Source: Peptococcaceae bacterium
GTDB taxonomy: Bacteria > Bacillota > DSM-12270 > Thermacetogeniales > Thermacetogeniaceae
Direction: 5' to 3'
DNA length: 59,113 nt
Assembly (NCBI GenBank): GCA_023249405.1
Contig: JAHFCR010000015.1
Location: 1-59,113, forward strand
The notes beneath the pieces were generated by a model. It did no database searches. It saw only the letters and a list, made by a program, of their open reading frames with translations, and had not been told where the DNA came from. Positions 1,680 through 24,288 of the stretch are shown here, piece by piece. Every line of letters begins with the position of its first letter. Position 1 is the stretch's first letter. The translations under genes and the position numbers were made by a program.

Positions 1680-2180
1680 TTATGCACTCTCCTCCTCGTC
1701 ATAAAGTAGTCTATTGGCGTTCAACAGAATCTTTACCTGATCACCGACCTTACCCATACCCTGGATAAACTTGTTGCTCTTCCCCTTCCTCATCTGCGGC
1801 GGGGGCTCGATCGCATCTTTTTGTATATCCAGCACCTCCAGCACCCGGTCAACGATCAGCCCTACCGGCTGCTCGTTGATATTGATCACGATGATGCAGG
1901 TACGGTCATCATAGGAGCGCTCATCAACCCCGAAACGCAACCGGACGTCCATGACCGGGATCACCTTTCCCCGAAGGTTGATCACGCCCTTGATGTAGGA
2001 TGGCATGTCAGGGACCTCAGTAATGCCCTGGATGCCGATGATCTCCGTCACGTACCGGATTTCAATGCCGAAGTCCTCCCTGCTAATGACAAAGGTAAGA
2101 AACTTGTCCTCCTGGGTGTCCTCTTCTCCCCCTTCATCATCCTCAAGCAGGTCGGCATCCAGCCTTTCCTTTTCGGTCAC
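1680..2180 (-). CDS. cheW: CheW-like coupling protein
   Basis: A 166-residue CheW-domain protein that couples receptors to the CheA kinase. The core is typical: LTFVISREDFGIEI, then the hallmark PDMPSYIKGVINLRGKVIPVMD and GLIVDRVLEV. An acidic linker of about 25 residues precedes the domain. The frame could open at a TTG at 2195, but that codon sits inside the ribosome site GGAGGTGA. The GTG at 2180, 5 bases after this site, is the better start. The gene overlaps the end of cheA by 38 bases, which suggests translational coupling, and is followed almost immediately by the receptor gene. Confidence 0.9.
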   Translation of the reverse strand: MTEKERLDADLLEDDEGGEEDTQEDKFLTFVISREDFGIEIRYVTEIIGIQGITEVPDMPSYIKGVINLRGKVIPVMDVRLRFGVDERSYDDRTCIIVININEQPVGLIVDRVLEVLDIQKDAIEPPPQMRKGKSNKFIQGMGKVGDQVKILLNANRLLYDEEESA

Positions 2181-4797
2181 TCTCTTCACCTCCAACGATT
2201 AGTAGCTTGGTCTTTATGGCTAATGCATCATGCTCAACTGAACTGACCAGATCCGCAATGTCCAGGATCATGCTGATCTCACCATCGCCCAGGATGGCGC
2301 AGCCGGAGATTCCTTTGACATGATTCAGGCAGCCTGGCAACCCCTTGATCACGATCTGCTGCTGGCCTAGCAACTCGTCCACAAATAGACAGCATTTACT
2401 ATCGCTGCCTTCGACAACGATCAGAATGCCCTCGTTCAACTGGTGGTGCCGGGGAGGCACCCTATAGAGTTCGTGCAGCCGGAGCACAGGCAACAGCCCT
2501 CCGCGGATACGAACGATTTCCAGGCCGTCGGGAGTGCAGGTAATCTGCCCGGGACTGGGGCGAAACGATTCCTTGACAGAGCTGATCGGAATCGTGTAAC
2601 GATTGGCTCCGACCTTGACCACCATCCCCTCGATAATGGCAAGGGTCAGGGGAATACGGATGGCAAAAATTGTTCCCATCCCTGCCTTGCTCCTAATATC
2701 TACCTTGCCTCTGATCCTCTCGATGTTCCGTTTGACCACATCCATGCCGACGCCTCGTCCTGAGATACTGGAGATCTGCTCGGCAGTAGAAAAACCAGGC
2801 TCGAAAATCAGTCGCCAGAGGTCCTCGTCTTTTATCTCCTCATCCTCGCTCTTGATCAACCCTCTTTCTACGCCCTTTTGAAATATCTTCTGGCGACTCA
2901 AACCCCTCCCGTCGTCTTCCACGGTGATCCACACCTCGCCAGCCGAATGCTTGGCCTCGATAATGACCCGCCCAATCTCCTGTTTACCAGCGGCCAATCT
3001 TTCGGCGGTCTGTTCCAGCCCGTGGTCGACAGCGTTGCGGACAAGGTGTACCAGCGGGTCAGAGATCTGTTCGATGATCGTTTTGTCAACCTCCGTATCC
3101 TCACCGATGATCTCCAGGTTCACCTGTTTGTTCGCCTTTTGGGAGAGATCTCGGACCAGGCGCATCATCTTGCGGAACACCCCTGCCAGGGGAATCATCC
3201 TCATGGACATAGCCACTTCCTGGATCTCCCGTGAAATCTTATCAAGCTGCACCACAGCCTTATTAAAACGGTCATCCTGGCTGGTGTTCAAATCCTGGGA
3301 GTTGGCCACCATTGATTCTGCAATCACCAGTTCCCCCACCAGATCGAGGAGTTTATCCAACCTGTCAATATCCACCCGGATTACCGTTTCCGGTGGCGCC
3401 TGAACAGCGCCAGGCTGGCGCTGTTCAGGCGCCACACCACTGGCCGCGGCATCCTCCACAACAACCGGAGCGCCCATGCCTGCCTTGGCCTCAGGCGCTA
3501 GTTGCAAACCCCTCTCGAGCTCATTAGAACTAAACTTGGGTTCTATACTGATCGTCGTGGCGGGTACACTGAACAGGGCAGGATGATCATCCTTAGGCAC
3601 AGTCTGTGGATGCACATTCCATTGCTCGGTTAGATCAGATTCAAGGATCTTTTCATTAGGCCCTGCAACTTCGAGATCTTCCGCATGAAGTGGTGAATAA
3701 ATTAGTTTTTCATCGCTTTCAAATATTTGCCCATCCTCACTATCGGCCAATTGCTCCAGGCCCTCGCAAATCTGGTCGAAATCAGGTATCTTGCCGTCGT
3801 CACCGCAGTGCATACCGTTTACCTTGCTGCGGACAACGTCAACTACTTTCAGCAGGGCAGATATAGCGACCTCGTCGCCAGCTTTCTCTCCATCCCTAAG
3901 CCTGTCCAGCACGTTTTCAGCCAGATGGCTGATCTTTTCAAGATCGCCGTAGCCAAAGAACCCGGCATTACCCTTAATGCTATGAAAGGCGCGAAAGGCC
4001 TGGCCGGCAGATTCCCTATCCGGCATTTTCTCAAGTTGCAGCAAAGCCGACTCCGCGTCCTCGCTCAGCTCCAGCACTTCTTCGGTAAATCTCCTGGACA
4101 TTTCAGGCGTAATCCTCAGCCCCATTTCATCCAGGTTAGGGGATGGCTTAAAGTTCTCTCCCGCTGGGTACTGAGATTCTGTCTCAAGATCCCCGGGCAG
4201 GAGCATGGATGCACCCTCTGGAGCGCTTTTAACACCGGAAAGAAGTTCATCAAACTCCATGCCCAGATCATCTGGCGTCTCCGGTTCCCGATACGCCCGG
4301 CTGCCGTCGGCCGAGGTCTGGCTTTCCTGCAACCGCAGGCTGTCGTTTTCATCCTCATCATTTATGGCCATAATCACGTGTCTCAGATCATCGATCAGGC
4401 TGGCGGCCATGTCCTCAAATCCATCATCACAAAGTTTGCGCTCTACTACATCAAGTATGTTCCTGATAAAATCAGTGGTACGGCAAAGGAGATCCACATG
4501 GTAGGGTGTGACCGCGGCTTTACCCTTACGGAAAAGGTCCAACAGGGTTTCCGCCTCGTGGGTGACACTGATGATAGTCTGAAAATCAAGGAAGGATGCT
4601 GTTCCTTTCAGCGAGTGAAAGAGACGGAAGATCGTATTCAAGATCTCTTCATCAAGTTTTCCAGAGTCAAACGCGCCTTTTTCCAGATCAATGATCTGGG
4701 GCTCAGCATCATCTAACAGTTCCCGACCCTCGGTCACAAAATCTTTGACCATTTCCATTCTTTCCTCAAGATCGCTGTCCAGATCATTGCCCATCAT
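2143..4797 (-). CDS. cheA: CheA-type histidine kinase with two HPt domains
   Basis: An 884-residue cytosolic CheA homologue. HPt domain 1 lies near residues 12-125 with phospho-acceptor H61 in FHSLKGTASFL. HPt domain 2 lies near 230-350 with H272 in FHSIKGNAGFFGY. A low-complexity linker (about 355-470) follows, then the dimerisation helix, a HATPase domain with the N box HLVRNAVDHG (584-593) and the G box GRGVGMDVV, and a C-terminal CheW-like domain. No P2 CheY-docking domain is apparent. Two HPt domains and an operon with a stand-alone receiver suggest a non-flagellar or branched phosphorelay; no flagellar gene is visible here. The linker holds a perfect 20-bp inverted repeat (3393-3435). 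Confidence 0.93.
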   Translation of the reverse strand: MMGNDLDSDLEERMEMVKDFVTEGRELLDDAEPQIIDLEKGAFDSGKLDEEILNTIFRLFHSLKGTASFLDFQTIISVTHEAETLLDLFRKGKAAVTPYHVDLLCRTTDFIRNILDVVERKLCDDGFEDMAASLIDDLRHVIMAINDEDENDSLRLQESQTSADGSRAYREPETPDDLGMEFDELLSGVKSAPEGASMLLPGDLETESQYPAGENFKPSPNLDEMGLRITPEMSRRFTEEVLELSEDAESALLQLEKMPDRESAGQAFRAFHSIKGNAGFFGYGDLEKISHLAENVLDRLRDGEKAGDEVAISALLKVVDVVRSKVNGMHCGDDGKIPDFDQICEGLEQLADSEDGQIFESDEKLIYSPLHAEDLEVAGPNEKILESDLTEQWNVHPQTVPKDDHPALFSVPATTISIEPKFSSNELERGLQLAPEAKAGMGAPVVVEDAAASGVAPEQRQPGAVQAPPETVIRVDIDRLDKLLDLVGELVIAESMVANSQDLNTSQDDRFNKAVVQLDKISREIQEVAMSMRMIPLAGVFRKMMRLVRDLSQKANKQVNLEIIGEDTEVDKTIIEQISDPLVHLVRNAVDHGLEQTAERLAAGKQEIGRVIIEAKHSAGEVWITVEDDGRGLSRQKIFQKGVERGLIKSEDEEIKDEDLWRLIFEPGFSTAEQISSISGRGVGMDVVKRNIERIRGKVDIRSKAGMGTIFAIRIPLTLAIIEGMVVKVGANRYTIPISSVKESFRPSPGQITCTPDGLEIVRIRGGLLPVLRLHELYRVPPRHHQLNEGILIVVEGSDSKCCLFVDELLGQQQIVIKGLPGCLNHVKGISGCAILGDGEISMILDIADLVSSVEHDALAIKTKLLIVGGEESDRKGKAGCRPA
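3393..3435. repeat. Perfect 20-bp inverted repeat, 3-base loop, inside cheA
   Basis: Positions 3393-3412 are the exact reverse complement of 3416-3435, separated by GGC. The repeat keeps the cheA frame and encodes a Pro/Ala/Gln-rich stretch (APEQRQPGAVQAP) in the linker between the HPt and dimerisation domains. A perfect stem of this length is unexpected by chance in coding DNA. It may be an in-frame palindromic insertion or an extreme mRNA hairpin. Confidence 0.85.
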
Positions 4798-4828: not shown

Positions 4829-5290
4829 CTATGAATCCTTTAATAAACCCAGTAGATCCTCGTAAGCGCTCTTCAGCCGGGCGTATTCCATGGCCAGACG
4901 CGCATGTTCGTTTTCGACCTTTTCCCGGTGCTCGCTTTCCTGCTCGATCCTCTTGATCACCGTCATCAGGTTGGCCAGCTTCAAGGGTTTGCAAAAAAAA
5001 GCGCATGCTTGGTTGTTCATAGCTGCAATAACAGTGTCTATATCCCAGCAGGCAGTAACAATGACCACTTTGGTATCGGAATTACAGCCGCGAATCCGCT
5101 GCAATACCTCAATCCCATTCATGCCGGGCATTTTTAGATCTATAATCGCCACGTCAAAGCCGACCTGCTGGTGTGCTTCCAGGGCCTGCTCAGCCTTGAT
5201 GAACGCATGGCAGACATGTCCGTCTATTTCCAGGGCAGAGGCCAGGCTCTTCAGGCAACCAGGATCATCGTCGATCAGCAAGATGTTCAC
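4829..5290 (-). CDS. Single-domain response regulator with helical tail
   Basis: A 153-residue receiver protein. The acidic pocket is D7-D9 (LLIDDDP), the phospho-acceptor is D51 in IIDLKMPG, the switch residue is T79 (VIVTA) and the conserved lysine is K101 (FCKPL). About 40 Glu/Arg-rich residues after the receiver look like a short coiled coil, and there is no DNA-binding domain. A longer frame opens at 5362, but the GTG at 5290 follows GGAGG by 7 bases and starts exactly at the receiver. It is the first gene of the che-like operon, 31 bases before cheA, so it is the natural phosphoryl acceptor of that kinase. Confidence 0.88.
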   Translation of the reverse strand: MNILLIDDDPGCLKSLASALEIDGHVCHAFIKAEQALEAHQQVGFDVAIIDLKMPGMNGIEVLQRIRGCNSDTKVVIVTACWDIDTVIAAMNNQACAFFCKPLKLANLMTVIKRIEQESEHREKVENEHARLAMEYARLKSAYEDLLGLLKDS

Positions 5291-5389
5291 ATAACGCCCT
5301 CCATGCGCTAAAAGTCTTAAAAAGGTAGATTGCAAGAAACATGCTAGACCTAAAAGAAGCAAAGCGCTGTGCTCCTTTGAACGGCAAAA

Positions 5390-5543: not shown

Positions 5544-6968
5544 TTATTTTAAACGATTATAAAGAGTGCGGAGGGGAATGTCGAGATAGTGCGCTGTTTG
5601 CAATTTATTGCCATGGTGCATCTCTAACGCCCTCAGAATGATTTCGTCTATAAAAGGCTTAAGCGGCAAACCATCAGGCGGAAGTACAAAACTAGCGCCC
5701 GGTGTCTCCTCGCAATATGATTGAGAATGGGCTTTCCGCAGCTTCAGGTGCAAGGGTTTTAACTCGGTATCATCATGCATTATCACCGCCCATTCAATCA
5801 CATTTCTCAACTCCCTGATATTGCCGGGCCATTCATATGACAGCAACAAATCAACAGCCGATTTGCTTATAGTTTTAAAGTTTTTCCTTTTTTCTTTGGA
5901 AAACCGGTTCAGGAACATCTCCACCAGAGGAATGATGCCATCTTTGCGCTCCCTTAACGGTGGCAGATAAATACGGGCAACATTGAGCCGATAAAAGAGG
6001 TCTTGCCGAAACTCCCCTCGCTCCACTTTTTGTTCAATATCAACATTAGTGGAGCAAATGATGCGAACATCAGTCTTAAATTTTTTCAGTCCTCCCACCC
6101 GGTAGAATTCCTTTTCCTGAAGAACGCGTAGTAATTTGGCCTGGAGTTCAACGGGGATCTCGGTGATCTCGTCAAAGAAAATCGTGCCTCCCTGAGCCAT
6201 GTCCAGCTTTCCTTTTTGACCCCTGGGAAGGCCACCGGTATAGGCGCCGGCATCGTAACCAAACAATTCGCTCTCAAAAATGCTTGGAGCCAGAGCAGCA
6301 CAGTTCAGGTCAACGAAAGGCAAGGCAACACTCTCCTCGCCATAATGGATATACCTGGCGACCAGTTCCTTACCGGTTCCCGTTTCGCCCTCGATCAGGA
6401 CCGGCATAGAGCGTTCGGCATGAAGCGTCAGCGCTTGCTGATACACCTTTTTCATGGCCTCCGTATAAATGACGATGTCACCCAGGCCAACTATCCGGAA
6501 ATAGGCCTCCTTCAGATGAAGTAATTCCTGCGTGGTTGCTGCAGCCGCCACCCTGACTGCTGATTCAAACCTGTTGGTCAAAAACTCGTTTTCTCTTCTA
6601 AGAACCTGATACTCGGCTGCGCGATCTATAGCGATAACCAACTCCTCGAGCTTGATTGGCTTCTGTAAATAGTCATAGGCGTCGTAACGCATCGCCTCAA
6701 TAGCAGTCTGGAGTTCGCCATATCCAGTCATAAAGATCACACTGGCATCGTGTCCCCCCGGAAGACTGCGCAGCTCGCGCAAGAATTCTATTCCGGACAT
6801 TCCTGGCATTTTGATATCAGTCAATACTATTGAAAACTCTTGCGTCTTAAAGGCTGTCAAGGCAGTTTCACCATTCGAACATTCTGCAATTACATGGCCA
6901 ATCTCCCTCAAAAATGATGATAAGTATGCTCTCCCTCTTTTGTCATCGTCAACGATCAGGATATTCAC
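5544..6968 (-). CDS. Sigma54-type response regulator (NtrC family)
   Basis: A 474-residue regulator: receiver (1-120, phospho-acceptor D51 in LTDIKMPG, lysine in YDYLQKPIK), AAA+ domain (about 165-390, Walker A GETGTGK at 194-200, Walker B GGTIFFDE at 260-267) and a C-terminal Fis-type helix-turn-helix (GNKLQTAHYL..RTLYNRLK). The sigma54-contacting loop, normally GAFTGA, reads GAYTGG at 241-246. Tyr for Phe is tolerated in known activators, but Gly for the final Ala is unusual. The gene starts 26 bases after the REC-PAS histidine kinase and presumably receives its phosphate. It should act at a sigma54 promoter; I could not place one convincingly. Confidence 0.93.
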   Translation of the reverse strand: MNILIVDDDKRGRAYLSSFLREIGHVIAECSNGETALTAFKTQEFSIVLTDIKMPGMSGIEFLRELRSLPGGHDASVIFMTGYGELQTAIEAMRYDAYDYLQKPIKLEELVIAIDRAAEYQVLRRENEFLTNRFESAVRVAAAATTQELLHLKEAYFRIVGLGDIVIYTEAMKKVYQQALTLHAERSMPVLIEGETGTGKELVARYIHYGEESVALPFVDLNCAALAPSIFESELFGYDAGAYTGGLPRGQKGKLDMAQGGTIFFDEITEIPVELQAKLLRVLQEKEFYRVGGLKKFKTDVRIICSTNVDIEQKVERGEFRQDLFYRLNVARIYLPPLRERKDGIIPLVEMFLNRFSKEKRKNFKTISKSAVDLLLSYEWPGNIRELRNVIEWAVIMHDDTELKPLHLKLRKAHSQSYCEETPGASFVLPPDGLPLKPFIDEIILRALEMHHGNKLQTAHYLDIPLRTLYNRLK

Positions 6969-6994: not shown

Positions 6995-9247
6995 TTAGAG
7001 GACTGGCAATAACACCCGAAAAGTTGCCCCGCCCTTTTCGTTGTTGCGAACAACAATATTGCCGTTCAAGTTTTCTACAATCGACTTCACAATCGATAGC
7101 CCGAGGCCCATTGATTTATCGGGATTCTTCGTGCTGTACAGGGGCTCAAAGATCCTGCGGCCTATTCCTGCGTCGATGCCAATCGCGTTGTCTGCCACCT
7201 CGAAAATCACTTTTCGCTCTAATTGGCAAGTAATAATGACGATCTCTTTCTCGTTGCCGCTCACATCATCCAGCGCCTCCATTGCATTGACCAGCAGGTT
7301 GATCACCACTTCTTCCAGGTCGTTTCTTGTGGCCATCACATCCGCCAGGTTAGCAGCAAAATCTTTTTTAATGGTGATTCCATGAGCGGCCAGTTGACTT
7401 CCCAGCAAGTCCAGCGCATCATCAACCGCCTTATTGATGCTACAGGGCACCATCTCCGCGTGCCCGACCTGGGCAAAAGAACGGATGTGTTTGATAATCG
7501 CATTGATGCGGTCTATCTCTTCCGAGATGCTCTGCAATTTTTCCTTGATTTTTTCCGATCCCAGCTCCTTGCCCCGATTAAGCATATATAACATTCCATC
7601 GGCTAACACGGAAATAGAATTCAGCGGCTGGGCAATTTCGTGAACCACACCAGCTGACAGAGCGCTCAAGGAAGACAGCTTATGCATTTGTGCAATCTGC
7701 CCCTGAATGCGCTGCTTCTCTCTTCTAACTTTCTCATTTGCAGTTATATCCTGGAATACTCTTATATAATGTGTCACCTGTCCCTTTTTATCTATAATGG
7801 TGGTGATTGTATAGGCCTCAAAATATTTTACGCCATCCTTGCGAAGCGCCCAGGTCTTACCGCGATACTGGCCAGTCTCTTTGAGCGATCGCCGTAACTC
7901 CTTGGATTTTGTCGGGCCCAAGTGATTGAAAAACAGTAAACTGCGATCATTTCCAATCACTTCTGATTTGCTATATCCGGTTATCGACGTAAAAGCAGGG
8001 TTAATAGAGTCTACCACTCCATCGACGGTGATCACCAAAATACCGGCAGATACATTTTCCAAGACCTCGGCAGCCAGATGAAGCCGATCTTCCGCCTGCC
8101 TCTGTTCCGTGATGTCCAAACCAGTGGCGACAATATATTCTACAGAACGCACATCGTTTAGCAGCACGGTGTTCTTCCATGCAATCAACCGACGGTCGCC
8201 CTTCTTTGTAAGCCAGAAGTTTTCGGTATTATTGGGGTATTTTCCACTGCACAAATCTTTAAAAACCGCCCTGACCCGTTCTTTTTCTTCTGGAACGAGA
8301 ACTAGATCACAGAATGCCTTCCCTTGTACCTCCTTAAAGCTATACCCTGATACTGATTCACAGGTACGGTTGAAGCCGACGATGCGCCCCTCGATATCCA
8401 GTACTAACACCAACGCCCCTGCAGTATCAAGCACCGCGCTGGAAAAAACCCGTTCTCGTTTCAGCGCCGCCTCCGCCATCTTGCTCTGGGTGATGTCGCT
8501 GATAAACGATACGCAGGCAGGTCCATCAGGTAAATCTAACTGCGCCGTCTCGATAAAAGTCGGAAAGGTCGAACCATCCTGTTTTAACCCGACAGTTTCC
8601 AACAACTTGGGCAAAACCTTGCCCAGTTTACGCCTTTCTATTCTTTCTCTTATCTCTTGTCGGTAGTCTGGCGCAATATAGTCAACCAGTGATGTGGTAT
8701 GAATCATAGAGGCATCTTTTAATCCATACATATACAGAAGCGCCTGGTTGGCAAACATGATCGAGTTATCGCGGTATATGATTATGCCCATCGGCGCATT
8801 TTCAAACAGGCTGCGGAAGCGCTCCTCGCTCTGTTCCACAGTTTTCTCAGCCCGCCTGCGCTCCTGTCTAATCGCAGCTTCGCGCAGTTCCCGTTTTATA
8901 GCAGGGACCAGCCTAGACAGATTGTCTTTCAAAACATAGTCATGGGCACCCGCTTTCATGGATTCGACAGCAAGATCCTCGCCGATATTTCCGGATACAA
9001 TTATAAAAGGTAGGTCAAGCCCCTTTTCCTGAAGCAGCCTGAGGGCATCCAGGCCACTGAAGCACGGCATGACATAATCGGAGATCACAAGATCCCACCC
9101 CTGTCCATCAAGGGCGGTGTTCATCGCCTCAGCCGTTTCCACCCTTTCACACAGCAAATCATAACCGCCGCGCTGCAGTTCACGGATCAGCAGCGCGGCG
9201 TCTTCCTCACAATCCTCAACGATCAGTAAACGCAGACCGGCGCTCAT
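6995..9247 (-). CDS. Hybrid histidine kinase, REC-PAS-PAS-PAS-HisKA-HATPase
   Basis: A 750-residue soluble kinase. It begins with a receiver (D57 in LVISDYVMP, lysine in HDYVLKDN), followed by three PAS domains (about 150-270, 275-395, 400-525), a HisKA helix with the acceptor histidine in VVHEIAQPLNSI, and a HATPase domain with NLLVNAMEAL and GLGLSIVKSIVENLNG. The helical region resembles NtrB-like kinases. The start at 9247 has AAGGAG 7 bases upstream; the longer frame from 9286 lacks this. With the sigma54-type activator 26 bases downstream it forms a two-component operon. No membrane segment is present, so the signal is intracellular. Confidence 0.92.
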   Translation of the reverse strand: MSAGLRLLIVEDCEEDAALLIRELQRGGYDLLCERVETAEAMNTALDGQGWDLVISDYVMPCFSGLDALRLLQEKGLDLPFIIVSGNIGEDLAVESMKAGAHDYVLKDNLSRLVPAIKRELREAAIRQERRRAEKTVEQSEERFRSLFENAPMGIIIYRDNSIMFANQALLYMYGLKDASMIHTTSLVDYIAPDYRQEIRERIERRKLGKVLPKLLETVGLKQDGSTFPTFIETAQLDLPDGPACVSFISDITQSKMAEAALKRERVFSSAVLDTAGALVLVLDIEGRIVGFNRTCESVSGYSFKEVQGKAFCDLVLVPEEKERVRAVFKDLCSGKYPNNTENFWLTKKGDRRLIAWKNTVLLNDVRSVEYIVATGLDITEQRQAEDRLHLAAEVLENVSAGILVITVDGVVDSINPAFTSITGYSKSEVIGNDRSLLFFNHLGPTKSKELRRSLKETGQYRGKTWALRKDGVKYFEAYTITTIIDKKGQVTHYIRVFQDITANEKVRREKQRIQGQIAQMHKLSSLSALSAGVVHEIAQPLNSISVLADGMLYMLNRGKELGSEKIKEKLQSISEEIDRINAIIKHIRSFAQVGHAEMVPCSINKAVDDALDLLGSQLAAHGITIKKDFAANLADVMATRNDLEEVVINLLVNAMEALDDVSGNEKEIVIITCQLERKVIFEVADNAIGIDAGIGRRIFEPLYSTKNPDKSMGLGLSIVKSIVENLNGNIVVRNNEKGGATFRVLLPVL

Positions 9248-9390
9248 CCCCGTTCTCCTTTCTATAAACAGAATGCTTAGCCTCAAACAGGGTTCGTCTT
9301 CTCCTACTTGAAAGTTATCGGGAAAGCTTCCTTAGCAGGCTTTAGTTCCAACCAAAGTTTAGTTGGCCCGATCGCGCCCGGGTGCCCGGC

Positions 9391-9542
9391 GTAGTCGCTC
9401 TTACCTGTACCGTTTTCTATTGTGCAAGCATGCCCGCCCGCCGGGCGGGCACCTGTAACCTGATCGTAGCAGGGGTACCTGCTCTAATACCCACCACTTT
9501 AGAAGAAGTGGTGGGTATTAGAGCAGTAGCCATCGGATAAAA
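9391..9542. repeat. Dispersed repeat, copy A (expanded), palindrome-rich
   Basis: The ends of this block match copy B at 11692-11755. The left end is GTAGTCGCTCTTA in both. The right ends are ATTAGAGCAGTAGCCATCGG (A) and ATTAGAGCGGCAGCCATCGG (B), each followed by WTAAAA. Copy A is longer because it contains a nearly palindromic GC-rich 21-mer (9431-9451) and a perfect 19-bp inverted repeat (9481-9524). Its right end abuts the decayed receiver gene. It lies upstream of the 9247 kinase gene on the minus strand. Confidence 0.7.
9481..9524. repeat. Perfect 19-bp inverted repeat, 6-base loop
   Basis: Positions 9481-9499 are the exact reverse complement of 9506-9524 with TAGAAG between. It has no T run on either side that would make it a simple terminator. 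It sits inside repeat copy A. Confidence 0.85.
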
Positions 9543-9905
9543 TGCGGCGGGGGTGTATTCATAAACAGTTAATATATGCCAAGCTGTTTTGACGGTATCG
9601 GCAAATTGATCAAAGTCTACCGATTTGCAGATATAGCTGTTTGCTCCCAATTGGTAACCTCTGGCTAGGCCTTTGTCTTCGTTGGAAGAGGTCAGGACGA
9701 CCACCGGTAGATCGCTAGTGCCCCTTCCTGCGTACGCACCAGTGCCCAAAAGAAATTCCAACGCTTCAGCGCCATTCTGCGCTAGCACAATCACGTTGGC
9801 AATTCCGCTTCTACAGAAGAAAGCCCGCAGAGCCAATTCGGTGTCATCGGGGTTACCTTCTACCAGGAGAATGAATTTACCCGCCCATATGCCGCCTATT
9901 CTTTG
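9543..9905 (-). pseudogene. Decayed Rcp1-like response regulator
   Basis: The remnant begins with KFILLVEGNPDDTELALRAFF. The usual ED pair of the receiver pocket has become EG, and the only nearby ATG is out of frame and hits a stop after three codons. The middle goes straight from RGTSDLP to VVVLTSSNEDK, so about 25 residues holding the phospho-acceptor Asp and DGLEVL region are deleted. After DFDQFADTVK the frame shifts near 9587. In the shifted frame the family ending KQLGIY-xLFMNTPPP is readable, but with a TAA (9569-9571) where a Trp codon is expected. The upstream neighbour is a phytochrome-type kinase, the usual partner of this receiver class. Confidence 0.82.
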
Positions 9906-9919
9906 TTGTAATTATTCGA

Positions 9920-11452
9920 TCAGGATAGTGTAAAATAAAAAACTGCCCCTTTGTCCACTTCACCTTCAGCCCAGATCTTCCCACAGTGCCTGAGAACAAT
10001 CCGCTGGATAGTGGCCAGGCCAATACCGGTGCCGGAAAACTCGGTTTGTGAATGCAGGCGCTGGAAAGGGCTGAAAAGCTTGCCGGCATAAGCCATGTCA
10101 AAGCCAGCGCCGTTGTCACGCACGCTGTAAACCTGACTGCCATCCAAATTGGTGATACCAAATTCGATTCGCGTTTCCGGTTTACGCCCGGTAAACTTCC
10201 AGGCATTTTCCAGCAGGTTCTCCAACATCACCCGCAGTAGGAGGAGATCGCCCTCGGCTGTCAATCCTTCCTGGATGATAATGGTTGCCTGCCGTTCCGG
10301 CTGCGTCATTCGCAACTCGCATACAATCGACCGCGCCAGTGCGCTTAGATCAACTTGCTCCCGATGCATCTCGATACGAGTGATGCGAGACAGATCGAGC
10401 AGGGCATCAATTAATTCGGCCATCCGTTTGCTGGACATCTTCAACCGCTCCAGGTATTCCTTTCCCTGTCGATCCAGGCAGCCTCCATAGTCTTCCAGAA
10501 GCGCCTGGCTGAAACCGTGGATGCTTCTCAACGGGGCGCGCAGGTCGTGGGAGACAGAATAGGCGAACGATTCCAGCTCAGATGTGCGCTCCCTGATTAG
10601 CTCCTCCAGGTGTTCGCTATACTTGTCTAGTTCCTCTTTTGCTTGCTTGCGGTCGGTGATGTCGCGAGCAGATATGATGGCCCTCTTAACCGTCCCATCT
10701 TCGACTACTCCTTTGCTGAGAACCTCAAGCCAAAGATAATGACCGTCTGCATGCTTAAATCGCAAGTCTGCCTTCTCAATGGAGAGGAGATTAATTGCTG
10801 TTTTAAATAACGCCCTGATCCTGCCCTGATCATCGTTATGAACGTAATCAAAAACAGCTTTTCCTAATAATTTTTGCGGATCATACCCCAGGATAGCTTT
10901 AATTGAAGGCGTGATGTATCGGAAATTGCCTTGTTCATCTATTTTTAAGATTATATCAAGCATATTATCGGTGATCTGCCGTAGCTGCGCCTCGCTTTCC
11001 TGCAGCGCTTCCTCCATTCGCCTGCACTCGGTGATATCACGGATAACGGCGATTACTTTGCTCACCTTGCCGTCTTCGATGACCGGTATTTTCCAGATTT
11101 CTGTACAGACGCGGATGTTGTTCAGAATAAATAACTCATGCCCATAAGTCGCATCTCCTGTCACAAAAATCCGGCGATATTCCTCTTCAGCATTCTTCGG
11201 CAAATACGGATTTGTCTCCATCAAGGTTTTACCGATTATATCCGTAGGGAGGCCAGCCTGTCTGCGCATAATTTTGATAGCCTCATTGACAAAAACTATC
11301 TGCAAATCCCTGTTCAGCACCATCAGTCCATCATTGATATAATTTATAATGGTATTATAAAACGCCTCCGACTCTTGTAGGGTTTGCTCTACTTTTTTGC
11401 TTGCGGTCATATCTCTGGCATCCGCCACAAATTGCCTGCTTTTTGGGTCCAT
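9920..11452 (-). CDS. PAS-PAS histidine kinase of the phytochrome-kinase type
   Basis: A 510-residue soluble kinase. Two PAS domains (about 25-145 and 150-270) are followed by a HisKA segment with the acceptor histidine in YSVSHDLRAPLRSIHG near residue 300, and a HATPase domain with NLLENAWKFTGR, DNGAGFDM and GTGIGLATIQRIV. The SHDLRAPL box and the KF.GR N box match Cph1/bacteriophytochrome-like kinases, but the GAF and PHY light-sensing domains are absent. GGAG precedes the ATG by about 9 bases. The dedicated receiver directly downstream is a pseudogene, so this kinase may now lack its own partner. A 477-base non-coding region with repeat copy B precedes it. Confidence 0.9.
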   Translation of the reverse strand: MDPKSRQFVADARDMTASKKVEQTLQESEAFYNTIINYINDGLMVLNRDLQIVFVNEAIKIMRRQAGLPTDIIGKTLMETNPYLPKNAEEEYRRIFVTGDATYGHELFILNNIRVCTEIWKIPVIEDGKVSKVIAVIRDITECRRMEEALQESEAQLRQITDNMLDIILKIDEQGNFRYITPSIKAILGYDPQKLLGKAVFDYVHNDDQGRIRALFKTAINLLSIEKADLRFKHADGHYLWLEVLSKGVVEDGTVKRAIISARDITDRKQAKEELDKYSEHLEELIRERTSELESFAYSVSHDLRAPLRSIHGFSQALLEDYGGCLDRQGKEYLERLKMSSKRMAELIDALLDLSRITRIEMHREQVDLSALARSIVCELRMTQPERQATIIIQEGLTAEGDLLLLRVMLENLLENAWKFTGRKPETRIEFGITNLDGSQVYSVRDNGAGFDMAYAGKLFSPFQRLHSQTEFSGTGIGLATIQRIVLRHCGKIWAEGEVDKGAVFYFTLS

Positions 11453-11691
11453 TCAATGTGTCTCCATAAGTTTACTAGTCTTTTTAAATGCATATTGGCA
11501 CAAAGCTTGATTCTTCTTTTTTCGACAATTTTTTCATTGCTTCCTGCCTGTCTTTAAACTATTAAGAATTTTCTATGATAACAATCAATATCATAGCTGC
11601 TATATCGAGGCAAACCTATAAACAGAGTTCTTAGCTTTAGGAGAGGGGTTTTTATTCTCCCCTTGAAATCTAGAAAACGCTATCTAGGAAC

Positions 11692-11755
11692 GTAGTCGCT
11701 CTTAACCGCTACCTAAGAGAAATGGAGGCATTAGAGCGGCAGCCATCGGTTAAAA
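11692..11755. repeat. Dispersed repeat, copy B (compact)
   Basis: A 64-bp copy of the element whose ends flank 9391-9542. TTAACCG near its left end is the reverse complement of CGGTTAA near its right end, and CCGCT also pairs with AGCGG, so two alternative stems are possible. It lies in the 477-base gap (11453-11929) upstream of the kinase at 11452. I see no gene in the rest of that gap. Confidence 0.65.
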
Positions 11756-11929
11756 AGGCTCCTGTTATTGCTAGCTTTTTATGAGAGGCAGTTTTACGTC
11801 CGTACGGTATAAGCGGCTAAATTCGATTGTTCTTTTTCTTTTTTTGGGGGGCAGTTCGTGAGAATGCTACGAGGGTATTCGGATAACTACAACCGCATAA
11901 TTTGAAAACACCGTTATGGCGCCATGGCC

Positions 11930-13273
11930 TTAGAGAACAGGACGAGCGCCACGCCTGGACGACCGTTTGACCTTATACTTTTCTTTGATCCTGGGCACCA
12001 CATAGACTACATACAGCCCGATAACCACCAGTCCCGCAGCCACCCAAAAGGCTATGACCGGGTCGGTGGCAATGGCCATCACAGCCAAAACAGCAAATAT
12101 CAACATGGTCAACACCGGAATGACCGGGCCAAAGGGCACCCTAAAACTCCTGGGCGCATCAGCCATCGTTTTTCTTAATACCAACACTGCCGCGGCTGAA
12201 AGAACATAGATAATACTTTCGGCTGCAGCAGCCATATCTACCAGCACCAGATACCTGCCGGTATAAAGGATGACCAGGGAAAAGATATAACCAACCGCAA
12301 AAACAGCTATGATAGACACCCATGGAGTCATGAATCTCATGCTAACCCGGCTGAATACCGGCGGTAGAGCGTGTTCCCTGGCCGTAGCGTAAAAAAAGCG
12401 GGATACGCTTAAAAGACCGGCGTTAAAGGTGCCAAAGGAACAAGACAGGCAGATCAGCAAAATCCAGACCAATCCGGCCTTGCCCAGCACTTTTTGGGCA
12501 AACAGCACCTGGGGTATGGGGGAATGGATAAAGACACCGCGGGCAATATTTGCCGTCATGGCCGCTGTGAACAGGGCATAAACAACGCACACAATTCCCA
12601 CCGCTATAAACATGCCGCGGGGTATGATCCGGGAATCGGTGACTTCTTCGGCCAGCGGAGTGACCCATTCAAAACCGACAAAAAGAAAGACTCCCACCGC
12701 TACAGCCTGGATAAATTTAGTTGCACCGCCGACAGCCAGCGGTGCAACAAGGTGGAAATTGACCTGCCTCAGTCCCCAAAGAGAGAGCAGGATCACAGAG
12801 ACAATCACTCCGTAAGTAACTACATCCTGAAAACGGCCAGCCAGTTTAATACCCCTGATGTTCAGCAGGGTCACTATCGCCAGCATCGCTGTAATCCAGA
12901 TCACGGGGGCTACCTGTGGGATTGAATAATTAAATATCTTGGCCAGCACAAAGCTTTCGGCGCCCACCACCCCCATCACTATCAGCATATAGAGCATGGA
13001 AAAGGTCAGGGCCACCTTGTCCCCAAAAGCCTTCCCCAGATACAGGCGTATTCCGGCAGCCGAGGGCAGGATACTGTTGAGTTCCGAAAAGCACGTTGCT
13101 GCTAATATGCATAAAACCCCGCTGACCAGAATAGACAGCCAGGCGCTGTCGCCCGCCATAAAACCGGCTACCTGGGCAGCCGCCAAGAAAGAGGATGTGG
13201 CCAGAGTGAGACCAGCGCTGGTAGCCACCACGGTACGCAGGGTAAGCACCCTTTTTAGCTGCAAATTATTCAC
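11930..13273 (-). CDS. APC-family amino-acid permease
   Basis: A 447-residue integral membrane protein with about 12 hydrophobic segments. The first-helix region (TVVATSAGLTLATSSFLAA) and the overall spacing fit APC-superfamily amino-acid/polyamine transporters. The last residues are Arg/Lys-rich and would face the cytoplasm. The start overlaps the end of the SCP2-like gene by 8 bases, so the two are probably co-translated with the quinate-dehydrogenase-like gene upstream. The substrate cannot be read from sequence. By context it could be an amino acid or an aromatic acid, but that is a guess. Confidence 0.85.
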   Translation of the reverse strand: MNNLQLKRVLTLRTVVATSAGLTLATSSFLAAAQVAGFMAGDSAWLSILVSGVLCILAATCFSELNSILPSAAGIRLYLGKAFGDKVALTFSMLYMLIVMGVVGAESFVLAKIFNYSIPQVAPVIWITAMLAIVTLLNIRGIKLAGRFQDVVTYGVIVSVILLSLWGLRQVNFHLVAPLAVGGATKFIQAVAVGVFLFVGFEWVTPLAEEVTDSRIIPRGMFIAVGIVCVVYALFTAAMTANIARGVFIHSPIPQVLFAQKVLGKAGLVWILLICLSCSFGTFNAGLLSVSRFFYATAREHALPPVFSRVSMRFMTPWVSIIAVFAVGYIFSLVILYTGRYLVLVDMAAAAESIIYVLSAAAVLVLRKTMADAPRSFRVPFGPVIPVLTMLIFAVLAVMAIATDPVIAFWVAAGLVVIGLYVVYVVPRIKEKYKVKRSSRRGARPVL

Positions 13274-15742: not shown

Positions 15743-16363
15743 TTAACGATTACAAACTAGCACTTGCGGCCGGGAATGCCGCACCAGTTCCATTCCCGAC
15801 CTGAACGCCTCAAGATTCAATTCCTTATACTGGGGCTTCACTGCTGCGGTCACTACCGCGCTCCAGTCCAGATCGTCGGCCAGTCCGATCAGCTTGATCA
15901 AGGCGCCTGCCATGATGACATTCATGACTCGTACGTTCCCCAGCTCCCGGGCCTTGGCCTCGGCCGCAATGGGGAAAAACTTCACCGGCAAGGCCCCGAG
16001 CCGCTCGTTGATGTCCCCGGGGTAGGACGATTCTCCAGTTAAAACAGATGCCGGCGGGATCTCCATCTCATTCATAAGGAGGAGCCCGTCTTTCTTTAAA
16101 AAATGGGCATACCGCATGGCCTCTAACTTTTCCATCGCAAACAGGACATCAACCGCCCCCTCGCCCACCAGTGAGGAGTAAACCCTATCGCCATAGCGCA
16201 GCTGGGTGATCACGCTGCCGCCGCGCTGGGCCATACCGTGGACTTCCGAGCTCTTCACATCATAATCCGCCTGGATCAGACCGTCGATGAGGATCTTCGA
16301 TGCCATGATGATCCCCTGGCCGCCAACACCGTCGAGCATGATGGTTCTTGTTTCTCTGATCAT
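15743..16363 (-). CDS. iorB: Indolepyruvate ferredoxin oxidoreductase, beta subunit
   Basis: A 206-residue gamma-type subunit of 2-oxoacid:ferredoxin oxidoreductases. The diagnostic N-terminus is GVGGQGIIMASKIL, followed by VKSSEVHGMAQRGGSV. With IorA it oxidatively decarboxylates arylpyruvates (indolepyruvate, phenylpyruvate) to aryl-acyl-CoA, passing electrons to ferredoxin in the cytoplasm. It overlaps the end of iorA by 4 bases (ATGA), a sign of tight coupling, and is the last gene of buk-ptb-iorA-iorB. The length is typical for the family. Confidence 0.92.
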   Translation of the reverse strand: MIRETRTIMLDGVGGQGIIMASKILIDGLIQADYDVKSSEVHGMAQRGGSVITQLRYGDRVYSSLVGEGAVDVLFAMEKLEAMRYAHFLKKDGLLLMNEMEIPPASVLTGESSYPGDINERLGALPVKFFPIAAEAKARELGNVRVMNVIMAGALIKLIGLADDLDWSAVVTAAVKPQYKELNLEAFRSGMELVRHSRPQVLVCNR

Positions 16364-18153
16364 GACCTGACCTCCGCCACCTCATAGATAGATTCATGCC
16401 TGCATACCTGCTGGCAGATACCACAACCAAAACAGCTAAGGGCGTCGATGACTGGCTTGCCATCCTCGCCGAGCGAGATCGCCGGGCATCCAAGCCTGAG
16501 GCACAGCCTGCAATCCTGGCACTGGTTCTGATGCACGGCACGCCTGGACCCGCCCTCGACGCCCCTGATTAACCGGCAAGGGGCCTTCACCACGATGGCA
16601 GCCTTGCCGGATGCCATTTTAGCTGTCTGGATGGCACTACGGATGGCATCCAGGTCGTAGGCGCCGACCTGCATCACCGGGTCATAACCCATGGCCTTGA
16701 ACAATACCGCAGGCTCCTGCATGAGGGTGGGAGCGCCGTTCATCATGCGGCCCGTCCCGGGGTTTTGCTGGTGGCCGGTCATAGCGGTGATCCGGTTGTC
16801 CAAAACCACGGGCACAAACGCCCGGCCATTGTAAATCCCCTCCAGGGCGCCGGTAATGCCTGAGTGAAAAAATGTGGAGTCCCCCATGACCCCGAAGACC
16901 TTCTGGCCTTCGGGGACCGTAAGGCTCAGTCCCTGGGCCATGGTGTACCCGCCGCCCATGCAGATGGATGCCTCGAAGGCCTCCAGCGGCGGCATGGCAC
17001 CCAGACTATAGCACCCGATATCCCCGGTCATCATCAGTTTGGCTTTTTTGGCCATGTAGAAGAAACCGCGGTGGGGGCAGCCCGCGCACAGCAGCGCCGG
17101 TCTGGCAGGAACGCCCGGCAATGGGCCCGGCGCAGCCGGTTCAGCTCGGCTGCCAGCTGACGGGAACGGTATATTCAGGGTGGTATTGGCCAGCGAAGCG
17201 GCCACGATCTGGGGATTGAGCTCGTAAAAGCTGGTGATATACTTCTTGCCCTCGCACCTGATCCCCATCGCCTTGATATTGTTCTCAAGGTAGGGATCCA
17301 GTTCCTCTACAACAACAAGCTCCCTGACCATACCGGCAAACTCCCTGATCCTGTTCACATTGAGCGGGTAGACGAGCCCCAGCTTCAGGACCGAGCAGCT
17401 ATCGCCAAAGACTTCCTTCACGTAGTTGTATGATGCTCCGGAGGTGATGATCCCCACCTCCGGGCTGGTGATCTCCATCAGATCCAGCGTTTGCACAGAC
17501 TCATCTTCAACGATAGCTGCCAGGTTCCGCTCCAGCACCTTTTTGCGAGCGCGACTGTTGCCGGGAAGGGTGACATATCTAGGGCTGGGTACATAGTCAC
17601 GCTTGATCCGGCTGTACTTCATCTCCTCATTCAGCAGCACCAGTCCGCCGGCATGGCTGGTGCGGGTGACCAGGCGCAGCAGGATCGGAACATCGTAGCG
17701 CTCACTCAGCTCGAAGGCCAATTTGGTAAACCGGAGGCATTCCTCGCTGTCCGCCGGCTCCAGCATGGGAACCTTGGCATGCAGGGCATACCAGCGGTTA
17801 TCCTGCTCGTTCTGGGAGCTGTGCATCCCCGGGTCGTCCGCCGCAGCGATCACCAAGCCGCCGTTGACGCCCAGATAAGCGGTTATAAACAGGGGGTCCG
17901 CCGCCACGTTCAGTCCCACATGTTTCATGGTCACTATGGCTCTCAGACCACCTACCGCAGCGCCGTAGGCCTCCTCGAGGGCCACTTTCTCGTTCACCGC
18001 CCAGCATACCTCGGGTCCATCCTTGAGGCTGAGGGCTTCCAGGATCTCCGTGCTAGGCGTTCCGGGATAGCCGATTCCCAATCCGACCCCGGCCTCCCAG
18101 GCGCCCCGGGCGACAGCTTCGTTGCCTGTCAGCATCACCTTGGTAGTCAACAT
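16360..18153 (-). CDS. iorA: Indolepyruvate ferredoxin oxidoreductase, alpha subunit
   Basis: A 597-residue catalytic subunit. The N-terminal pyrimidine-binding part starts TGNEAVARGAWEAGV and GYPGTPSTEILE. The thiamine-diphosphate part has GDIGCYSLG and GDSTFFHSG. The C-terminus carries two [4Fe-4S] motifs, CQDCRLCLRLGC and CFGCGICQQVC. Product and partner are as for iorB: 2-oxoacid + CoA + oxidised ferredoxin to acyl-CoA + CO2. It lies 19 bases after ptb. The presence of Ptb/Buk upstream suggests that the acyl-CoA formed here is used for ATP synthesis. Whether the substrate is aromatic or branched-chain cannot be settled from sequence. Confidence 0.93.
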   Translation of the reverse strand: MLTTKVMLTGNEAVARGAWEAGVGLGIGYPGTPSTEILEALSLKDGPEVCWAVNEKVALEEAYGAAVGGLRAIVTMKHVGLNVAADPLFITAYLGVNGGLVIAAADDPGMHSSQNEQDNRWYALHAKVPMLEPADSEECLRFTKLAFELSERYDVPILLRLVTRTSHAGGLVLLNEEMKYSRIKRDYVPSPRYVTLPGNSRARKKVLERNLAAIVEDESVQTLDLMEITSPEVGIITSGASYNYVKEVFGDSCSVLKLGLVYPLNVNRIREFAGMVRELVVVEELDPYLENNIKAMGIRCEGKKYITSFYELNPQIVAASLANTTLNIPFPSAGSRAEPAAPGPLPGVPARPALLCAGCPHRGFFYMAKKAKLMMTGDIGCYSLGAMPPLEAFEASICMGGGYTMAQGLSLTVPEGQKVFGVMGDSTFFHSGITGALEGIYNGRAFVPVVLDNRITAMTGHQQNPGTGRMMNGAPTLMQEPAVLFKAMGYDPVMQVGAYDLDAIRSAIQTAKMASGKAAIVVKAPCRLIRGVEGGSRRAVHQNQCQDCRLCLRLGCPAISLGEDGKPVIDALSCFGCGICQQVCRHESIYEVAEVRS

Positions 18154-24191: not shown

Positions 24192-24288
24192 TGGCGGGAG
24201 CGTGTGAGAATCGAACTCACCAAAGACACTCGTCATGCCTCTCACTGGATTTGAAGTCCAGGCGCACCACCAGGCACAATCCGCCCCC
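24192..24288 (-). tRNA. selC: tRNA-Sec (anticodon TCA)
   Basis: A 97-base tRNA on the minus strand from GGGGGCGG to an encoded CCA. The anticodon loop CTTCAAA places TCA at 24252-24254 on a CTGGA/TCCAG stem. The long variable arm (GAGAGGCATGACGAGTGTCTTT), discriminator G, and T arm GTGAG-TTCGATT-CTCAC are typical of selenocysteine tRNA. The acceptor is 7 good pairs plus a G-A at the eighth position. It serves UGA recoding with SelA and SelB, encoded about 7 kb away. Confidence 0.93.

Follow-up and report, generated by a model that had tools for sequence, protein, structure and literature searches.

Which receiver does a sensor kinase serve once the response regulator beside it has decayed? 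This question is raised by a locus in the window, the whole 59,113-nucleotide stretch of DNA analyzed here, which is contig C144 of a Peptococcaceae bacterium genome (3.57 Mb, 168 contigs, 98.76% complete). All genes of the finding are carried on the minus strand. In order of transcription they encode a PAS-PAS-HisKA-HATPase kinase (positions 9920–11452), a broken Rcp1-like single-domain response regulator (~9545–9888), a REC-PAS-PAS-PAS-HisKA-HATPase kinase (6995–9286; REC-PAS kinase in the following), an NtrC-type response regulator (5544–6968), a REC protein (4829–5362) and a CheA-like protein (2143–4797), the latter two recognized by domain search. A sequence-only reading of this DNA had proposed that the single-domain regulator decayed in several independent ways beside an intact kinase.

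Lesions of the Rcp1-like regulator

Two pieces of the broken gene match an intact paralogue from the same genome (contig C43) with E-values of 3.4e-11 and 3.5e-11, and its receiver homology is therefore not due to chance; the matched pieces are 52–57% identical. PF00072 detects the remnant at E 4e-5 with 24.2 bits, below its 30.2-bit cut-off. In the PDB, the intact paralogue matches the phytochrome response regulators RcpA (E 1.3e-25), RcpB (8.5e-24) and Rcp1 (1.3e-22). The remnant thus falls into the Rcp1/RcpA/RcpB family, yet lacks the phospho-acceptor Asp, the pocket Asp, the frame and the start of these proteins.

Every lesion named in the sequence-only reading is present on the minus strand. 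The gene was compared with the C43 paralogue, the regulator of the same-genus genome G001 and 39 family members, a comparison with intact relatives that this reading had suggested. The decayed gene had been placed at 9543–9905; a remnant is indeed found there (~9545–9888), but the upper end lies 17 bases past the ATG. This ATG (9888–9886) is off the receiver frame, and translation from it would end after three codons, as expected from the claim of an out-of-frame start region; among ATG, GTG and TTG codons, the receiver frame first offers a TTG, at 9836. The acidic pocket carries the D-to-G change, reading VEGN versus VEDN in the family. The segment with the phospho-acceptor Asp has been lost, its flanking Pro residues being joined directly and in phase. 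In 31 of 32 intact relatives, these Pro motifs lie 31 residues apart (39 were tried, seven of which the pattern left unmeasured), and 31 codons including that of the phospho-acceptor Asp are absent from the window regulator, a loss for which recombination between short in-phase repeats would be a natural cause. Likewise, a frame break was confirmed near 9587, where a +1 shift had been called, and a TAA (9571–9569) occupies the position of the conserved Trp of the family. Alignment with two relatives (C43 of the same genome and G001 of the same genus) further reveals an in-frame insertion of 3 bases; a Pro-to-Ser exchange lies behind the conserved Lys, and at ~9545 the 3′ end of the gene is met by a dispersed repeat.

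Across 36 readable columns with at least 85% agreement among 39 other family members, the remnant departs at four, namely at two Asp-to-Gly changes (one in the pocket), the Pro-to-Ser change and the stop at Trp, and 12 further near-invariant columns are missing. Because intact family members themselves depart at 0 to 9 such columns, the number of substitutions does not decide the matter; the gene is called dead on account of its lost segment, the altered pocket Asp, the breaks in frame and the premature stop. The remnant retains neither the full set of phospho-acceptor Asp and both acidic pocket residues nor a single open reading frame with a start. The window regulator is dead, a pseudogene.

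An assembly of 168 contigs might be thought to contain errors that mimic such lesions, the regulator being intact in the living cell. Within ~340 bases, errors would then have to account for the conserved-site substitutions, the deletion of 31 codons, both frame breaks and the stop, next to 510 codons without lesion, and we consider this explanation very improbable. A frame of 139 codons is still open and could encode a short functional pseudo-receiver; such proteins are known, and 2.0% of sampled receiver domains lack the Asp according to the accessible part of PMC12632262. This frame, however, begins past the acidic pocket, lacks the Asp segment and continues into the repeat, which renders a functional product scarcely credible.

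The upstream kinase and the intervening repeat

The PAS-PAS kinase fits its earlier description as intact, with an open frame of 510 codons comprising PAS, PAS, HisKA and HATPase domains. Within an alignment of 52 kinases, it departs at 2 of 69 near-invariant columns (range 0–10); within one of 103, it does so at 2 of 62 (mean 4.2). As judged by sequence constraint, the kinase is intact. A close kinase orthologue for dN/dS analysis was not found, the nearest row of the kinase tree being 64% identical over 220 columns. If the kinase were equally free to decay, the chance that all four disabling lesions hit the regulator would be 0.0027, a value that treats the lesions as independent and takes no account of the gene having been chosen for its broken state. 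Read with this proviso, it argues against the view that the whole kinase arm is dying and that a kinase without working partner has simply not yet collected lesions. Such a view draws on the repeat that separates the genes and on the remnant itself, which has kept the family residue at 32 of 36 readable near-invariant columns, so that regulator decay is probably recent. We regard a dying kinase arm as unlikely, with the caveat that, if the decay is very recent, even a useless kinase would look intact, which also qualifies any bypass of the lost regulator.

The lost partner could alternatively have been replaced in trans by an intact Rcp1-like regulator, the only one in the genome with close similarity. 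Contig C43 encodes this relative of 147 residues; outside the window, the next-best hit falls to E 7.8e-10, compared with 8.1e-95 for the C43 protein itself. The C43 regulator nevertheless has its own gene pair: it adjoins a REC kinase, and 11 kb further on the same contig lies a related kinase, followed after 43 bases by another REC kinase. Its identity to the window remnant is, moreover, just 52–57% in the matched pieces. A role in trans thus appears doubtful.

From the stop of the PAS-PAS kinase to the start of the REC-PAS kinase there are 633 bases, including a perfect 21-base inverted repeat. Owing to this spacing and the inverted repeat, co-transcription of both kinases is only a proposal, and we count this against a bypass. 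The inverted repeat is part of a dispersed palindromic element between pseudogene and REC-PAS kinase (9262–9545), which folds better than shuffled sequences (z −5.57). A related copy in the same orientation is found at 11616–11755, and the two copies bracket kinase and pseudogene, one copy preceding each kinase; eight other places in the genome carry the repeat with E 2.5e-4 or better. On account of this position before both kinases and of the folding, a leader RNA was also considered for 9262–9545; the few alignable copies are palindromes in varied settings, for which a dispersed palindromic repeat is the simpler reading. No Rfam family reached its gathering score over 9200–11950, where the weak matches (E 0.028 to 2.1) correspond to no sensible bacterial element. 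Among 72,556 plasmid records, 17 matched part of 9250–11500 and none covered 80% of this interval.

The module in related genomes

A search for an orthologous module within the genus matched one of two same-genus genomes (G001, 54%), in which kinase, intact regulator and REC kinase lie in a row. In the kinase tree, the G001 kinase groups as sister of its C43 counterpart and not of the window kinase. The kinase core was further searched in 398 genomes of the window's phylum (15 matching at 1e-50), in three further genomes, in 297 genomes of the G405 phylum (52 matching at 1e-60) and in 292 genomes of the G403 phylum (23 matching at 1e-60). No more than 7, 9 and 10 candidates per genome were scored in the 398-, 297- and 292-genome sets, respectively, and the match counts are accordingly lower bounds. 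Loci were obtained from 19 of at least 19 matches in the 398-genome set, 30 of 31 in the three genomes, 38 of at least 103 in the 297-genome set and 27 of at least 27 in the 292-genome set, all searches together yielding 103 different kinase loci.

Downstream of these kinases, 33 loci harbor both a regulator and a REC protein, 13 a REC protein only, six a regulator only and 51 neither; the window is counted among the 33 though its regulator is dead, and locus L074 among the 51 despite a regulator remnant. A REC gene is hence located behind 46 of the 103 kinases and a regulator behind 39, the window being included in both numbers. Since six loci have a regulator without REC gene and 51 have neither, the REC gene is not a universal partner. 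By gene order, kinase, Rcp1-like regulator and REC-containing protein form a conserved module. In G405, the genome of an uncultured Geobacter that contributes locus L011, 23 kinases of the same family were found, and across 22 loci of this genome a REC gene lies behind one kinase and a regulator behind none.

In the 13 regulator-less loci, the REC gene starts 7–294 bases behind the kinase (median 57). In a quickly built tree of 98 kinases, from which five of the 51 loci with little downstream DNA were left out, these 13 loci are scattered and require 11 changes, at least four of them forced by starred branches. The group is hardly clustered (38 of 500 shuffles gave a value as low), and the tree does not tell loss from gain. 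The kinase of C43, with a REC kinase as its next gene, and that of G001, with a regulator as its next gene, are starred sisters. Among the best six tblastn matches per locus at E 1e-3, no regulator remnant was found in the gaps of the 13 loci, the weak matches hitting either the REC gene or distant downstream sequence.

A second decayed Rcp1-like regulator was identified behind kinase L074 of genome G048 (L160, G048:C36, ~3740–4030, reverse strand). Receiver homology is here confined to one stretch with an internal stop, the front part being unreadable, and behind the remnant lie another kinase, L067, and a REC protein. L067 is one of the 13, and as neighbors L074 and L067 are not independent. 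Altogether, 38 of the 40 regulators or remnants behind kinases of the family are open frames and two are decayed. Given the scatter of the 13 loci and the second decayed copy in G048, the regulator is dispensable in the module. It may be more than that: we tentatively suggest, as a possibility short of an even chance, that the regulator is a dispensable side branch tuning the phosphate flow from kinase to REC protein, that it was lost several times independently, and that the window and G048 represent losses in progress.

How a signaling pathway is rewired once a component is lost is commonly deduced from the end result; at this locus a middle part is caught while decaying, and relatives show the regulator intact, absent or decaying a second time. 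Whether a single-domain regulator serves as output or as tuning branch hence becomes testable, and if the side-branch reading is true, these loci provide natural before-and-after pairs for phosphorelay rewiring.

Candidate route of the phosphate

The sequence-only reading had suggested that the kinase may signal to the receiver of the neighboring REC-PAS kinase. This REC-PAS kinase combines an N-terminal receiver holding the conserved residues with DHp and CA domains, separated by three PAS domains. In a set of 43 with 0 to 9 departures each, its receiver shows a single one over 43 near-invariant columns. Among solved structures, this receiver is most closely related to LvrB (E 7.3e-19). The whole protein scores 185.9 bits against the LvrB family cut-off of 500, and its kinase half most resembles AtoS. 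Located 26 bases behind it, the NtrC-type gene finds its best NCBIfam profiles in AtoC and NtrC, both under their cut-offs. By gene order and domains, kinase, REC kinase and NtrC-type regulator stand in series. The sigma-54 contact motif of the NtrC-type regulator reads GAYTGG, the usual form being GAFTGA.

Partner specificity was explored via co-variation of the kinase helix behind His with helix 1 of the candidate receivers, an exploratory analysis with few rows, shared ancestry and one choice of sequence segment. In 30 complete modules, kinase and REC protein co-vary beyond their overall divergence (partial r 0.351; 4 of 2000 permutations reached this value). The same holds for kinase and regulator (0.279; 19 of 2000). 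For 12 testable modules without regulator, kinase–REC co-variation is not significant (0.176; 275 of 2000). Pairs of segments elsewhere in the proteins scored as high in 28 of 1050 cases for the REC protein of the 30 modules, in 79 of 1155 for the regulator and in 71 of 1050 when 43 kinase–REC pairs were taken.

Two characterized systems offer a comparison. LvrA phosphorylates receiver Asp56 of LvrB and raises LvrB kinase activity, the transfer starting at His218 in the first kinase part of LvrA, as described in the accessible text of PMC5863495. Like the window, this Leptospira pair combines a kinase with a REC-controlled kinase (PMC5863495, PMC13269768). LvrA is also the best NCBIfam match of the window kinase core, far under the cut-off, yet the match aligns to the second kinase part whereas the published transfer uses the first. 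Further differences are that LvrB lacks PAS domains while the REC-PAS kinase has three, that the window kinases score far under both curated cut-offs (LvrA and LvrB), and that an NtrC-type gene is present in the window whereas the accessible portions mention none for LvrA/LvrB. In Methanosaeta, FilI phosphorylates both its regulators, FilR1 and FilR2, according to the accessible text of PMC3991700. This system resembles the window module in pairing one kinase with a single-domain regulator and a second regulator, but there the single-domain regulator is intact and the second one carries an ArsR-related domain instead of being a kinase. On our reading, such a kinase may address both partners, in agreement with FilI and LvrA.

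The 13 of 103 loci that pair kinase and REC gene without the regulator, the intact receiver and the precedent of LvrA and LvrB support the suggested contact, and the window kinase probably has the receiver of the REC-PAS kinase as its target. We propose that, after the middle gene of the module had turned into a pseudogene, the upstream kinase would pass its phosphate to the front receiver of the REC-PAS kinase, that phosphorylation of this receiver would control the REC-PAS kinase, and that the latter would in turn phosphorylate the adjoining NtrC-type regulator as the putative final output. Co-transcription of the genes would be part of this arrangement, and the middle regulator would have served as a side branch, the main output lying elsewhere. 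A His, Asp, His, Asp chain leading to a sigma-54 activator would be the natural reading of such a gene series. Among several explanations, this bypass from kinase via REC-PAS receiver to NtrC-type regulator is the likeliest, and we judge it somewhat more probable than an even chance.

TcsA, TcrA and FsrR are a kinase, a REC kinase and an NtrC-like activator acting in series. Their order is that proposed for the window, a likeness by description. The three genes are named for Ensifer in the accessible part of PMC9048898. Pseudogenes, Rcp1-like regulators and REC-controlled kinases are each known separately, and in the literature searched, with subscription journals mostly outside it, no description of the three-gene module or its loss was found. 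The locus is not a new type of system; it is a clear case, backed by comparison with relatives, in which the recurring middle gene of a relay is lost while the surrounding genes are intact.

Elsewhere in the window, a selenocysteine tRNA is encoded at 24196–24288 on the minus strand, and the other Rfam matches at gathering score beyond 9200–11950 are a tRNA and a c-di-GMP-I riboswitch. The interval 15743–18153 contains genes resembling both indolepyruvate ferredoxin oxidoreductase subunits, each scoring just under its curated cut-off.
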